Below, in pieces: positions 22,429-32,480 of a stretch of 32,480 bases of DNA (positions are counted from its first letter, which is position 1; every line of letters starts with the position of its first letter). The stretch lies in IMG/VR virus record IMGVR_UViG_3300027898_000028, positions 1-32,480 of that record; one strand, written 5' to 3'. The notes beneath the pieces were generated by a model. That model searched no databases, had not been told where the DNA came from, and worked only from the letters and a program-made list of their open reading frames with translations. The DNA comes from a virus. The translations under genes and the position numbers were made by a program.

Positions 22429-22519
22429 GAGCGTAAGGGGGCGAGTAGCGAGTAGCGAAATAGCGAGTAGGGAAGCTCCTCTACTCGCTACTCGCCACTT
22501 CGCTACTCGCTCTTTTCGC
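22428..22519 (+). repeat. CTACTCGC palindromic repeat, copy 7
   Basis: Starts in the stop codon region with GAGCGTAAGGGGGCGAGTAG and ends CTACTCGCTCTTTTCGC, the same ends as copy 4. It fills the gap to ATG 22529. Confidence 0.88.
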
Positions 22520-22528
22520 TGATCCCCC

Positions 22529-23221
22529 ATGTACTTCAACCGCGCCCTCCCGCAAGTCACCAATCGGGAGGATCTGCTGCTGATGATTTCGCTGTTCGAT
22601 GACGACACCGCGCAGCCGATCAAGCTCGACGGCTGCACCACGTTCAATGCGCTGCCGTTCACCGGCGCGGCGTGGACCGTCACCGACGGCGCGATCGTCA
22701 CCGCCTCGACGACACCGCTGACAATTCCGGTGTTTCCGATCGGCAACCAGGTGTCGACGCTGTCGCTCACGATCGCAAAGAACCTGAGTATCAATGTAGG
22801 CGATCCGGTCACCGTCAAGGATACTGCGAGCGGCCTCAATTCGATGACCGGATACGTGGTGTCCTATGCGGCGGCGACCGGCGCACTCGTGTGTCAGATC
22901 GGCCTCACTTATCAATTCGAAATCCGCCGCGGCGGTCCACGCAATTACGGCGGCGGCTTCGTGCCGTGGTTCGATTTCGGCACGCCCGACGATCTCGGGC
23001 CGCTGCTCTCGGCCTCGCTTGGAAACGGCATCACGATAATCGATGTCGGGATGCTTCAGCTCCTCATCCCGGAGGCGACGTTCAAGACGCTTGGGTCCGG
23101 CACGTTCTCCGGCACCACCACCGGGACACTCAATGCCGCGTTGACCATGACCGATAGCGTGAACACCCGGCAGGTTTTCCTCGTCCAATTGCCGGTGCTC
23201 TACGGCGGAGTAACAATCTAA
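22529..23221 (+). CDS. Structural-region protein of unknown family
   Basis: A 230-residue protein. Begins YFNRALPQVTNREDLLLM, then beta-rich segments with a central GDPVTVKDTASGLNSMTGYV (about 91-110) and a C-terminal strand-rich part. No signal peptide. The small, beta-dominated fold and position in the fibre cluster suggest a virion component. No convincing ribosome-binding site lies between the repeat and the ATG (GATCCCCC), so expression may depend on coupling or on the repeat hairpin. Confidence 0.68.
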   Translation: MYFNRALPQVTNREDLLLMISLFDDDTAQPIKLDGCTTFNALPFTGAAWTVTDGAIVTASTTPLTIPVFPIGNQVSTLSLTIAKNLSINVGDPVTVKDTASGLNSMTGYVVSYAAATGALVCQIGLTYQFEIRRGGPRNYGGGFVPWFDFGTPDDLGPLLSASLGNGITIIDVGMLQLLIPEATFKTLGSGTFSGTTTGTLNAALTMTDSVNTRQVFLVQLPVLYGGVTI

Positions 23222-23222
23222 T

Positions 23223-23239
23223 CTTCGAGAAGACCTCAG
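23223..23239 (+). repeat. 17-mer repeat CTTCGAGAAGACCTCAG abutting a start codon
   Basis: The copy ends exactly one base before ATG 23240, filling the whole gap after the previous stop. Its GAGAAG is the only purine-rich stretch available as a ribosome-binding site. Confidence 0.85.
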
Positions 23240-23749
23240 ATGAGCCTGGCCGCCAATATCCGCGTCAATCTTTCCGCCCCGTTTCCTGCCATGGTGCAGG
23301 GCGGTAGCGGCATCACGGTCACCAAGCAGAACGGCATTTGGACTATCGGGCTCAGTTCCGGGCAGCTGCTCGGGATCATGCAGGCGGCGGGCTACGTGCC
23401 GGTGACGGCCGGCTCCGGACAGATCAATTTCGGCGCCTTCCCGGGCTCGACCGATGCGCAGCTCGTCATCACCGGGCAGGCCAATATCCTGGCCGGCTCG
23501 ATCGTCGAGGCGTTCATCATGCCGGCGGCGACGGCCGACCATACGGTCGATGAACATTGGCTTGATCCGCCGCGCATCCAGGCCGGCAATATCGTCCCCG
23601 GCGTCGGCTTCACGATCTATGGGGTCAATACCTGGGCATCCGGAGGACTGGACCCCGTCAATCCGATGCTCGGTCCGGGATCCGATAGCGGATTTTCCGG
23701 AGTTCCTCTCGTCCATGGCGCGTGGAGCGTCGGTTGGCGTTGGCAATAG
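23240..23749 (+). CDS. Hypothetical fibre-region protein
   Basis: A 169-residue protein with N-terminal beta strands (GGSGITVTKQNGIWTIGL, about 21-38) followed by a region of alternating strands and a GWRWQ end. The GGSGI-T-N-G-W pattern recalls the connecting segment at the start of many fibre modules. No signal peptide. Thirteen bases separate it from the next gene. Function unknown. Confidence 0.65.
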   Translation: MSLAANIRVNLSAPFPAMVQGGSGITVTKQNGIWTIGLSSGQLLGIMQAAGYVPVTAGSGQINFGAFPGSTDAQLVITGQANILAGSIVEAFIMPAATADHTVDEHWLDPPRIQAGNIVPGVGFTIYGVNTWASGGLDPVNPMLGPGSDSGFSGVPLVHGAWSVGWRWQ

Positions 23750-23761
23750 GAGTAGTTCGAC

Positions 23762-24412
23762 ATGGCCGGCATTATCGTCGTCGGTAAGATTTCGGGACAA
23801 GGGCAGGACGTGCAGGCCGACAGCTCTGCGCTGGTGGCCCTCAAGCCCTTTAATCCGGGCGCCCTCGGGCAATACAAGATGGCGCTCAAGAGCGGCCTGA
23901 TGGCGGCCGGACTCGGCGCCGGTTCTCCGATCGCGGCGTTCCGGTATGGCGGCGCCAACATCGCCACGGTGCGCCGAATTCTCTTTTCCGCCGGCGTTAA
24001 CACGACCGGATTCGCGCTCGGGGCCGCGCAATTCGATCTTTATGCGGCCCGTTCTTTCACCGCCTCCGACAGCGGCGGAACGGCGGCGACGTTGACCGGC
24101 AACAACGGCAAGCTGCGCACTGCGTACGCGACCACGGGGCTCGCGGATTTCCGCGTGTCGAGCACCGCGACCCTGACGGCCGGCACCCGCACGCTCGACG
24201 CCCAGCAGCTCGAATCGATGGTGCGCTCGATGTCGGTGTCCACGAGCCAGGACATCGTCAATCCGGAGACCGAGTTTTTCAAAGCCCTGCCGGGCGATCA
24301 GCGCCTGATCCTCGCGACCAATGAAGGCTTCGTGATACAGGCGACGGTGCCGGCGACCGGAACATGGAATTTCACCGTCGGGGTGGAATGGGACGAGTCG
24401 GCGGTCTGGTAA
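23762..24412 (+). CDS. Beta-sandwich virion protein of a recurrent phage family
   Basis: A 216-residue protein with AGGAG before ATG 23762. It contains ALGQYKMALKSGLMAAGLG (about 34-52), the SFTASDSGGTAATLTGNN segment (about 97-114), TLTAGTRTLDAQ (about 136-147) and a final LATNEGFVI...TGTWNFTVGVEW block. I know this set of blocks from proteins of unknown function in the fibre or decoration region of several phages of GC-rich bacteria. It is probably exposed on the virion. Good coding sequence, confident as a gene, less so in role. Confidence 0.72.
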   Translation: MAGIIVVGKISGQGQDVQADSSALVALKPFNPGALGQYKMALKSGLMAAGLGAGSPIAAFRYGGANIATVRRILFSAGVNTTGFALGAAQFDLYAARSFTASDSGGTAATLTGNNGKLRTAYATTGLADFRVSSTATLTAGTRTLDAQQLESMVRSMSVSTSQDIVNPETEFFKALPGDQRLILATNEGFVIQATVPATGTWNFTVGVEWDESAVW

Positions 24413-24424
24413 GCGGAGGATCAT

Positions 24425-24604
24425 ATGGCGGCCGTGAAATTGTTCGGGACCGGGGACCGCGATGAGTCGCATCGCAAGCTTGAAGAGGTTCTCGCGAGCG
24501 GACTGCATCCGCTCGCGGAATGCCGGGAAGATCCCAATCATGCGGAGCATCCGTTCCAGGTGTGGAGCGGGCCGCATGTGAAGGATCATGCCGGGACCGT
24601 CTGA
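24425..24604 (+). CDS. 59-residue hypothetical protein ending the structural operon
   Basis: A short gene with a strong GGAGG ribosome-binding site (GCGGAGGATCAT before ATG 24425). The acidic/histidine-rich sequence includes FGTGDRDESHRKLEEVLASG and HPFQVWSGPH. Its last 19 bp overlap the end of the convergent minus-strand gene, so both transcription units meet here. No terminator is evident. Family not recognised. Confidence 0.62.
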   Translation: MAAVKLFGTGDRDESHRKLEEVLASGLHPLAECREDPNHAEHPFQVWSGPHVKDHAGTV

Positions 24605-25416
24605 CGACGGTCGAGAAAATCCGGGATATCGTCATGGGGCGGCGGTTCCTCCATGATCGGATGGCGCCGTGTGATTTCGGATACCAGGAATGGCTTGGAC
24701 GGCTCGGCATTGCGTTCCCGTTCCAGGGTGTTCGCGATTCGCCCCTGCAGGGCGCGATCCGCGATCCCGCCATTCTTTAAGGAATGCTTAGGCGCCGGGA
24801 CGATTGTCCGTACTATGGTCTTCGCCGTGGCCGCCTGTTTGATGGCGCGCTCGACTTCCTCGCAAGGCGGCAATGCTCGCGGCGCCGGCGCGGGAATTTC
24901 CGGTTGCGGCACTTCCTGCTTGGCGCCGGCCGGAATATCGTCCATCTCGGTTTCGTCGAGAAAGCCGAGCCCGCAGATCGACAAAGTGGCGCGGCGCTTG
25001 GCCTTGGTAGAGGCTTTCATCATCGCGTTACAAAGCGCCTCGCCCTTAAGATTTGCGATCGGCACCGCGCCTATGTCGGCATCGGTGCGGCCGGCGCCCC
25101 CGGCGACATCTGCCGTGACGATGAAAATTCCGTCCTCTATGGTTTTCGTGAGAGCCGTTACGGAAATCCTGTGGATGGCGCGGAGCTGGTCGGTGCATGC
25201 CTTGAGCGCATAAAGCTGCAATTCGCCATTGAGCAGGATGTATTTGAACGGTCTGGTCATCGGATTAAGACCGAGCGATTCGCAGATGCGCACGTAATAT
25301 TTCGCGCGTTCGGCCTGGGTGAGGGCGGAAAGGTCGCCCTTGATCAGGACGGCCTCCATGATGGCGCCGACCTTGGCGGGATCGAATGGGGTGAGGAAAT
25401 TCGCGGGGGCGTTCAT
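24586..25416 (-). CDS. Putative single-strand annealing/recombination protein (RecT/Bet-like)
   Basis: A 276-residue protein starting at ATG 25416 (MNAPANFLTPFDP). The conserved core includes KYYVRICESLGLNPMTRPF (39-57), ILLNGELQLYALKACTDQLR (60-79) and KASTKAKRRATLSICGLGFLDETE (about 134-157). That arrangement (GLNP, then a substrate-like strand, then a K/R-rich helix before a glycine-rich turn) resembles phage annealing proteins of the RecT/Bet type, and I know the family from phage early regions without a proven function. The last 100 residues are a charged, proline-rich tail. It overlaps the upstream gene by 4 bp. Role in replication or recombination is an inference. Confidence 0.6.
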   Translation of the reverse strand: MNAPANFLTPFDPAKVGAIMEAVLIKGDLSALTQAERAKYYVRICESLGLNPMTRPFKYILLNGELQLYALKACTDQLRAIHRISVTALTKTIEDGIFIVTADVAGGAGRTDADIGAVPIANLKGEALCNAMMKASTKAKRRATLSICGLGFLDETEMDDIPAGAKQEVPQPEIPAPAPRALPPCEEVERAIKQAATAKTIVRTIVPAPKHSLKNGGIADRALQGRIANTLERERNAEPSKPFLVSEITRRHPIMEEPPPHDDIPDFLDRRQTVPA

Positions 25417-25757
25417 GCTGCGTCCCTCGTTTCGAGGATGACATCGCGCGCGGCCAGCAATTGTCCGCAGACATCCGACGCGGAGTCGGCGAGGATTGCG
25501 GCAATGCCGGTCTGATCGATGCAGGACGTTCCCGCCGACATCGAATCGATCGTGTCCTGTACGATGCATTTTGCATAATTGGCGACGGTGGCGAAAATCG
25601 CCTTGAGATGTTCGGCGCGGTCGGTCAGGTCGTGCTCATCGGCAATACCGGTGATCGGCGCCGGCCGCATGAACATCAGCCGGGTGACGAGATCGGCGTG
25701 CATGCGGCCTTCATCGTAACCGCGACTCGTGATAGAGGGCAACGCAGCTTGGGCCAT
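25413..25757 (-). CDS. Early-region hypothetical protein
   Basis: A 114-residue protein with AGGAG before its ATG (25757). Helical, with DEHDLTDRAEHLKAIFATVANYAK (part, about 39-62) and four cysteines late in the chain. It is coupled (4-bp overlap) to the putative annealing protein, which suggests a shared role in DNA metabolism. No family recognised. Confidence 0.65.
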   Translation of the reverse strand: MAQAALPSITSRGYDEGRMHADLVTRLMFMRPAPITGIADEHDLTDRAEHLKAIFATVANYAKCIVQDTIDSMSAGTSCIDQTGIAAILADSASDVCGQLLAARDVILETRDAA

Positions 25758-31471: not shown

Positions 31472-32047
31472 TCATGTTCCCCTCAGTGCTTCTTCGCGGG
31501 CTCTATTAATCTCGCTCATTCGTGTACTTGATCCGCCGCGGTCGGGATGATGTTTAAGCGCCAGTATCCTGAAAGCTTCTTCAATGCTTTTTCGATCGGC
31601 GCCGCGCGGCACTCCAAGGATTGCCCACGGATCGTGCGGCGGCGGCAGCGCCGTAAAGGCGTTCAGTGCCCGCTCAAGCATGGCGGTGGCGCCATAACGT
31701 TCGATCGAACGCAATGCCGCAATCGTCAGCCCGATAGCCCTGACGTTGTCGCGTACCGTCGTGAAGGTATCGCAGGCGAAAACTTTCCGTGTGCCCTTGA
31801 GTTCGAAATAGACCGCAACCCCGCGATCGGCCGGCTCGCTCCGATCGCGCTTCGGCATTCCGTCGAGTCGAAGTTCCAGGTTGGTCGATAATATGGGATA
31901 TCGGCCGCCAAGACGTTCGATCTCCGCAGCCAGCTCGGCGATCGCCTTTTCATAGGTGACCTTGAAATTTCCCGAACGCAGTCCGCCGATGTGGCGACAG
32001 CGCGGCCAGCCTTCCGGCCATGCGAGAGGATAACGGGTCACGCTCAT
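31472..32047 (-). CDS. Phage J-domain (DnaJ-like) protein
   Basis: A 191-residue protein with AGAGG before ATG 32047. Residues 1-135 form a conserved phage domain (YPLAWPEGWPR 6-16, LSTNLELRLDG 53-63, GVAVYFELKG 76-85, ACDTFTTVRDNVRAI 91-105, ALRSIERYG 111-119). Residues 139-190 are a short J-domain: DPWAILGVPRGADRKSIEEA, then LKHHPDRGG with the diagnostic HPD at 167-169. It probably recruits a host Hsp70 (DnaK) to a phage complex, perhaps at replication or assembly; the first domain likely supplies the target. The family occurs widely in rhizobial phages. Confidence 0.85.
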   Translation of the reverse strand: MSVTRYPLAWPEGWPRCRHIGGLRSGNFKVTYEKAIAELAAEIERLGGRYPILSTNLELRLDGMPKRDRSEPADRGVAVYFELKGTRKVFACDTFTTVRDNVRAIGLTIAALRSIERYGATAMLERALNAFTALPPPHDPWAILGVPRGADRKSIEEAFRILALKHHPDRGGSSTRMSEINRAREEALRGT

Positions 32048-32076: not shown

Positions 32077-32379
32077 CTATCGCTGGGCCATCGCCGCCGG
32101 CTTGCGCGCAAACGAGCAATGCCGGCAGCGCTCGCAATCCTCATCGAGAATTTGGAAGCCCTCGATGTAGATGAAATCGTGGCGGCCAAAGAGGCATTTG
32201 AGCGATTCGACTCCATGCCGCAGAGAGTCGAATCGCGGGGGCTTATAACCGCTGTTGCCCGGCGCCCGAGTCGAATCGGTATTTGAATCCGCTGAATAAT
32301 TGCACTTAGCGCGCTGGCCTATCACGCTAGAGGTCGCGGGTTCGAGCCCCGTCGCTCCCGCCATTGTGGGATCAATCAC
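32077..32379 (-). CDS. Zinc-ribbon-like protein frame with unclear start, read across the att site
   Basis: The open frame runs from GTG 32379 to the stop at 32077, but only the last 45 residues look like protein: KCLFGRHDFIYIEGF followed by DEDCERCRHCSF, a CxxCxxC pattern suggestive of a small zinc ribbon. The upstream part, with GATGLEPATSSV, is the familiar antisense translation of a tRNA 3' end and is not coding. No ATG lies between 32379 and the ribbon; a CTG at 32223 is possible. The gene may have lost its start at the attachment site, or use a non-standard one. Confidence 0.4.
   Translation of the reverse strand: MIDPTMAGATGLEPATSSVIGQRAKCNYSADSNTDSTRAPGNSGYKPPRFDSLRHGVESLKCLFGRHDFIYIEGFQILDEDCERCRHCSFARKPAAMAQR
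32202..32279 (+). other. Left cluster of arm-type repeats GCGATTCGACTC
   Basis: Copies at 32202-32213 (plus), 32225-32236 (minus) and 32268-32279 (minus, last base changed). The first two form an inverted pair 11 bp apart. Confidence 0.75.
32314..32363 (+). other. tRNA-Asp 3' fragment, probable attachment-site core
   Basis: CTGGC/GCTAG anticodon stem (32314-32330) with loop CTATCAC, a five-base variable region, a T arm (GCGGG-TTCGAGC-CCCGT, 32336-32352), the 3' acceptor strand CGCTCCC, G73 and CCA to 32363. C38 in the loop and G73 point to tRNA-Asp; the anticodon reads ATC instead of GTC. No D arm or 5' acceptor strand GGGAGCG lies upstream, so this is a fragment, not a gene. Confidence 0.75.
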
Positions 32380-32401
32380 TTAGGCCTCCTTTTGGGGTGC
32401 T

Positions 32402-32458
32402 GCGATTCGACTCTGCCGGCACCGAAATCATTGAGGAATTTTATTTGCGATTCGACTC
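32402..32458 (+). other. Right cluster of arm-type repeats GCGATTCGACTC
   Basis: Exact copies at 32402-32413 and 32447-32458, both plus strand, 39 and 84 bp past the tRNA fragment. No gene is evident in the last 100 bp of the window. Confidence 0.75.
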
Positions 32459-32480
32459 TTGGCCATACGGCCCCTTGCCT

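Follow-up and report, generated by a model that had tools for sequence, protein, structure and literature searches.

Positions 32202-32458 of the window, by which we mean the whole 32,480-nt stretch of viral DNA analyzed here, very probably form a lambda-type attP with which a temperate phage integrates, by means of a tyrosine integrase, into the tRNA-Asp gene of Xanthobacteraceae-like Rhizobiales. The host group is soil bacteria, and the insertion point is the tRNA-Asp gene. We read the site in this way because 16 viral contigs show the same oriented architecture, because in the integrated prophage of a relative the arms are shared out between attL and attR, which have 52 nt of core in common, and because an integrase with a tyrosine recombinase fold adjoins such sites as well as intact tRNA-Asp genes in bacterial genomes. 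The first-pass annotation had likewise taken the core and its flanking repeats for the attP of a tRNA-using tyrosine integrase, and the layout, the split prophage, and the adjoining integrase support that view. Since arms are present on both sides of the core, the window carries attP and not attL or attR. Of the accompanying claim of an unintegrated or circular genome, the presence of both arms fits the unintegrated form. The site assigns a bacterial family and an insertion locus to an environmental phage, and a literature search for tRNA-Asp attachment sites found none.

Arm-type repeats and tRNA-Asp core in the window

The window contains five exact copies of the 10-mer GATTCGACTC, all of them within 32204-32458 (Table 1). 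By chance, 0.12 copies would be expected per window, or 0.0009 in 257 bp; simulation of 60 windows yielded at most three copies of any 10-mer within 260 bp. From left to right, the repeats are oriented +, -, -, core, +, +, with three copies on the left and two on the right, and the left arm thus contains both orientations, as first described. The description of five 12-mer copies holds in part: four are exact, and the 10-mer is exact in all five, but the fifth 12-mer, at P3, carries one mismatch, which lies outside the 10-mer. It had also been cautioned that the word might be common elsewhere; within the window, the 10-mer is confined to the site, and paired copies of the word were found in 0/297 Rhizobiales genomes. 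The P2-P3 spacing is 43 in the window and 41-46 in its relatives. The distance between P'1 and P'2 is 45 bp as opposed to the usual 23 bp in the sites of the integrase family, which counts against the assignment.

Table 1. Coordinates of the attachment site and adjoining features in the window
Feature	Position	Strand	Remark
DnaJ-domain protein, phrog_9210	31472..32047	-	P-arm-side neighbour of att
P1 arm-type repeat GCGATTCGACTC	32202..32213	+	exact match; position and orientation kept in relatives
P2 arm-type repeat GCGATTCGACTC	32225..32236	-	exact match
P3 arm-type repeat CCGATTCGACTC	32268..32279	-	10-mer exact; one mismatch in 12-mer
Core, 42 nt of tRNA-Asp 3' end, anticodon loop to CCA	32322..32363	+	exact to host gene
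Candidate IHF site TCAATCACTTA (TCAANNNNTTR)	32372..32382	+	consensus match, 8 bp past CCA
P'1 arm-type repeat GCGATTCGACTC	32402..32413	+	exact match
P'2 arm-type repeat GCGATTCGACTC	32447..32458	+	exact match
Possible extreme integrase C-terminus ARGRMAKSRIANKIPQ	32428..32480	-	stop at 32428-32430; profile score not above background

The core exactly matches the final 42 nt of tRNA-Asp(GTC) genes from seven Xanthobacteraceae MAGs, in which ARAGORN calls complete tRNA-Asp genes. The tRNA-Asp 3' fragment reported between the repeats is thereby confirmed down to its terminal CCA, and the search for a host tRNA-Asp gene with the same 3' segment, proposed as a check, was successful. In the window, ARAGORN detected no complete tRNA, and the tRNA-Asp piece is therefore a fragment. 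Its similarity to tRNA-Asp becomes weaker leftward of the core, back to about 32305, and the fragment lacks the tRNA 5' half, as expected of an attP. A single difference from the host gene in the anticodon loop (CTATCAC in the window vs CTGTCAC) counts against the assignment. A candidate IHF site, recognized by its consensus, lies between the core and the right arm; the motif TCAANNNNTTR was observed <=40 bp from the CCA in 13/28 att loci, compared with 0.5% of random background stretches. As in a lambda-type attP, the window thus shares a core with the bacterial attB (42 nt of the Xanthobacteraceae tRNA-Asp) and carries repeated arm-type sites on both sides of it, in a geometry kept in relatives.

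Related viral sites and an integrated prophage

Scanning IMG/VR for two direct copies of the word 20-50 bp apart revealed 23 contigs, while the reversed word, used as a control in the same kind of scan, revealed 5. In 16/23 contigs (L083, L113-L116, L118, L120, L122, L124, L125, L127-L129, and L132-L134), the pair is 41-46 bp apart and the oriented layout of the window is found whole or in part; L113, L114, L116, L122, L127, L128, and L133 represent a single site in nearly identical form, and about ten of the sites are independent. The tRNA-Asp 3' end serves as the core in nearly all 16, with the exceptions of L083 and L125. The remaining 7/23 contigs, a number close to that of the control, display other spacings without the family integrase described below. 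At the repeat places, relatives carry GTTTCGACTC, GTTTCAACTC, GTTCCAACTT, or AGTTGATACT.

Some of these sites depart from the common layout. L083 (300-660) combines left-arm repeats with the tRNA-Asp anticodon arm only and has no family integrase, which counts against the assignment; next to it are a phrog_1 integrase and a further repeated word, TGTAAAACGC, and the site is possibly recombinant or decayed. The phrog_1-type integrase was considered as the cognate enzyme; L083, being without right-arm repeats, was left as an exception. L125 (1060-1340) has arms and family integrase as elsewhere, and its core is the anticodon-arm-like CGGCCTGCCCAGCCG, with no tRNA-Asp 3' end. Relative to the integrase, L168 (3819-4046; contig G321) and L201 carry core and arms the other way round from the window and most relatives, and this too counts against the assignment.

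The separation of the arms upon integration can be followed in IMGVR_UViG_3300025679_000009 (G335; 52,774 bp), an integrated prophage. Its attL comprises a complete tRNA-Asp (53-129) and repeats at about 174 and 198 (24 bp apart), followed by the integrase on the minus strand. Its attR, near 52.2 kb, comprises the three left-arm repeats, the outermost as GTTTCGACTC, together with a second tRNA-Asp 3' end, past which the sequence continues without right-arm repeats. The arms thus part into attL and attR around the 52-nt core common to both ends, as they should if the repeats serve as the arms of attP.

The integrase family beside these sites

Comparison of the ORFs around the sites revealed that a protein of about 390-440 aa is conserved beside att, and a profile scan identified 31 viral loci of this family. 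Its 3' end points at the site, at a distance ranging from directly abutting to about 700 bp. PF00589 proteins 11-16 kb off had been considered as the cognate integrase and were set aside once this closer conserved ORF was found. What is new here is an under-annotated integrase family that is barely detected by Pfam, NCBIfam, and PHROGs: NCBIfam detected 0/20 members, Pfam PF00589 marginally detected 3/20 (best E 0.0029), and PHROGs gave one integrase match for the family (E = 0.024). An AlphaFold2 model of a family integrase (pLDDT 82.8) matches lambda Int (1z19_B, Z 15.2) and the catalytic core (1ae9_B, Z 14.2, rmsd 2.7), as well as Cre and Xer, and the family is accordingly predicted to be a lambda Int/Cre-type tyrosine recombinase by structure. 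The modeled N-terminal domain consists of beta strands plus a helix and is located where an arm-binding domain would lie. A structure search with this domain gave no significant match, and no lambda- or Tn916-type N-domain was among the matches listed; arm binding by the domain is thus a putative role.

The canonical catalytic pentad of tyrosine recombinases is RKHRH (PMC8138268), which the family does not possess in full. The nucleophile Tyr, the beta-hairpin Lys, and Arg II are present: Arg II and Tyr are invariant in a 20-sequence alignment, and the Lys was found in 48/48 distinct family proteins, which were collected with a search pattern that required Arg II and Tyr. At the Arg I position, the register of which was taken from the profile alignment, these 48 proteins have Ser (42), Ala (4), Gln (1), or Asn (1) but never Arg, and an Arg is located five residues further on in 46/48. 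The His of HxxR is mostly replaced, and an Asn is found near the H/W position. We tentatively propose, at somewhat less than even confidence, that the active site is rewired, with Arg I changed to Ser/Ala and perhaps substituted by the Arg five residues on or by the invariant RxKTG Arg, and that this is combined with an arm-binding domain that repeatedly switches words at fixed spacing, providing a readable DNA-recognition code. With this family, it could be tested how tyrosine recombinases function when Arg I is missing from its usual place.

In bacteria, the family was identified in 14/397 Rhizobiales genomes and in 25/392 genomes of the candidate host family Xanthobacteraceae (about 6%), mostly beside tRNA-Asp; the seven MAGs with the matching tRNA-Asp lack it. 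A complete tRNA lies no more than about 450 bp from the integrase stop at 31/33 loci with a readable C-terminus (29 Asp, one Glu, and one Gly), or at 30/32 loci when counted by place, since L221 and L254 are the same place. At most genomic loci, the interval from integrase to tRNA contains a repeated word, with copies exactly 23 bp apart, and this word differs by subfamily (GTTCCAACTT, TTTCCGACTC, AGTTGATACT, and others). Such variation at constant spacing could reveal the recognition code of an arm-binding domain.

These loci also bear on whether the tRNA fragment is the core while the 10-mers are operators, for a repressor or the integrase promoter, instead of arm-binding sites. The repeats do sit in intergenic DNA beside genes, and arm sites overlap int promoters in other phages (PMC2951348). 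However, they lie to either side of the core with a set orientation and distance, and integration splits them between attL and attR. In other integrase subfamilies the 23-bp spacing persists while the word itself changes, and the integrase gene converges on the site by its 3' end, which places its promoter elsewhere. We therefore regard an operator function as very unlikely.

A search of the window found no integrase within its 32,480 nt, in agreement with the initial remark that none was visible; this counts against the assignment, and the integrase of the phage should lie just past base 32480. The window end was considered as the possible integrase C-terminus (Table 1), but its profile score was no better than background. 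The DnaJ-domain gene flanking the site is also next to att in L171, L124, and L003, and on the P' side in L168; the recurrence of this neighbor supports the expected layout. In L003, the nearest relative by gene content, an integrase end is followed by a tRNA-Arg 3' end and then the DnaJ-domain gene, without these repeats. Flanking genes alone are therefore no proof of the integrase type, a point against the assignment, and for the window phage the exact type rests on the GATTCGACTC arms. The L003 segment itself (1-290) holds a tRNA-Arg(CCT) 3' end with the adjoining integrase C-terminus and suggests exchange of att/integrase modules between related phages.

Another recombinase could act at the site: an L003-like integrase, or the PF00589 protein that six relatives encode far from att. 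G317, G318, G321, G327, G332, and G335 (L159-L164) indeed encode a second tyrosine recombinase, about 308 aa long and marked by the motif SGHSLRAGF. It lies 11-16 kb from the site, a distance that for four of these contigs holds only if they are read as circular. The L003 integrase end adjoins its tRNA-Arg site. Nevertheless, it is the roughly 430-aa family that adjoins these repeats, and tRNA-Asp genes across genomes, making another enzyme quite improbable.

Decay of the site into the att remnant of a defective prophage appears highly doubtful: the one-base anticodon-loop difference from the host gene and the P3 mismatch outside the 10-mer would fit it, but the five 10-mers are intact, both arms are there, the 42-nt core is exact, and the window retains portal, major head, head closure, tail, and terminase genes. 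Opposite to these structural genes run two adjacent minus-strand ORFs of 702 and 327 aa (22481-25569), with no PHROG or Pfam match; a phage DNA similarity search with the window gave no match. GANTC is the CcrM target of alphaproteobacteria, and each 10-mer has two adjacent GANTC sites (GATTC, GACTC), but a methylation signal controlling the cell-cycle timing of integration is extremely improbable and was rejected, because GTTTCGACTC, GTTTCAACTC, GTTCCAACTT, and AGTTGATACT at the same places in relatives lose one or both GANTC.

Proposed working and comparison with known systems

As predicted from its layout, the attP of the window would work like that of lambda. The integrase would cut inside the tRNA-derived core with its C-terminal domains and bind the five GATTCGACTC arm sites with its N-terminal domain, and the stretch from the core to the right arm would be bent by IHF; both integrase binding of the repeats and the role of IHF are proposed here from sequence. 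Integration would yield an attL with the intact tRNA-Asp, P'1, and P'2, and an attR with P1, P2, P3, and the tRNA 3' copy, and the host tRNA-Asp would remain functional.

The arrangement of arm-type, core-type, and IHF sites in lambda attP (PMC4880445) resembles that of the window, with P and P' arms on either side of a core, five arm-type sites corresponding to the five repeats, and an IHF site (a candidate, IHF-like one in the window) between core and right arm. In the window, however, the core is a tRNA-Asp 3' end, and the arm word, spacing, and orientations differ. The family integrase has the predicted fold of lambda Int with little sequence likeness and, unlike it, non-canonical residues at the Arg I and His positions. 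Among tRNA-targeting prophages, KplE1/IntS at argW likewise has an attP with a tRNA 3' end that restores the gene, along with arm-type and core-type sites (PMC2951348), whereas the integrase of the present family faces the site with its 3' end and is not IntS-like in library searches.

Closer likenesses are found in two further elements. The integrase of Microcystis phage vB_MweS-yong2 (UNJ22071.1; 37.6% identity over 98% of the query) adjoins a tRNA 3' end, past which the IHF-like motif TTTCAACACCTTAG occurs, but the tRNA is probably Arg and the repeated word is ATCCGACTTTT. On the Rhodoplanes serenus plasmid NZ_LR026982.1 (L178), WP_129607576.1, a family integrase annotated as a hypothetical protein, shows 41.7% identity and lies next to a tRNA-Asp 3' end with repeats 23 bp apart. 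This record differs from the window in its word, CGTGACACT, and in being a circular 53.8-kb plasmid; with its tRNA-Asp-type attP, it may represent the circular form of an integrative element.
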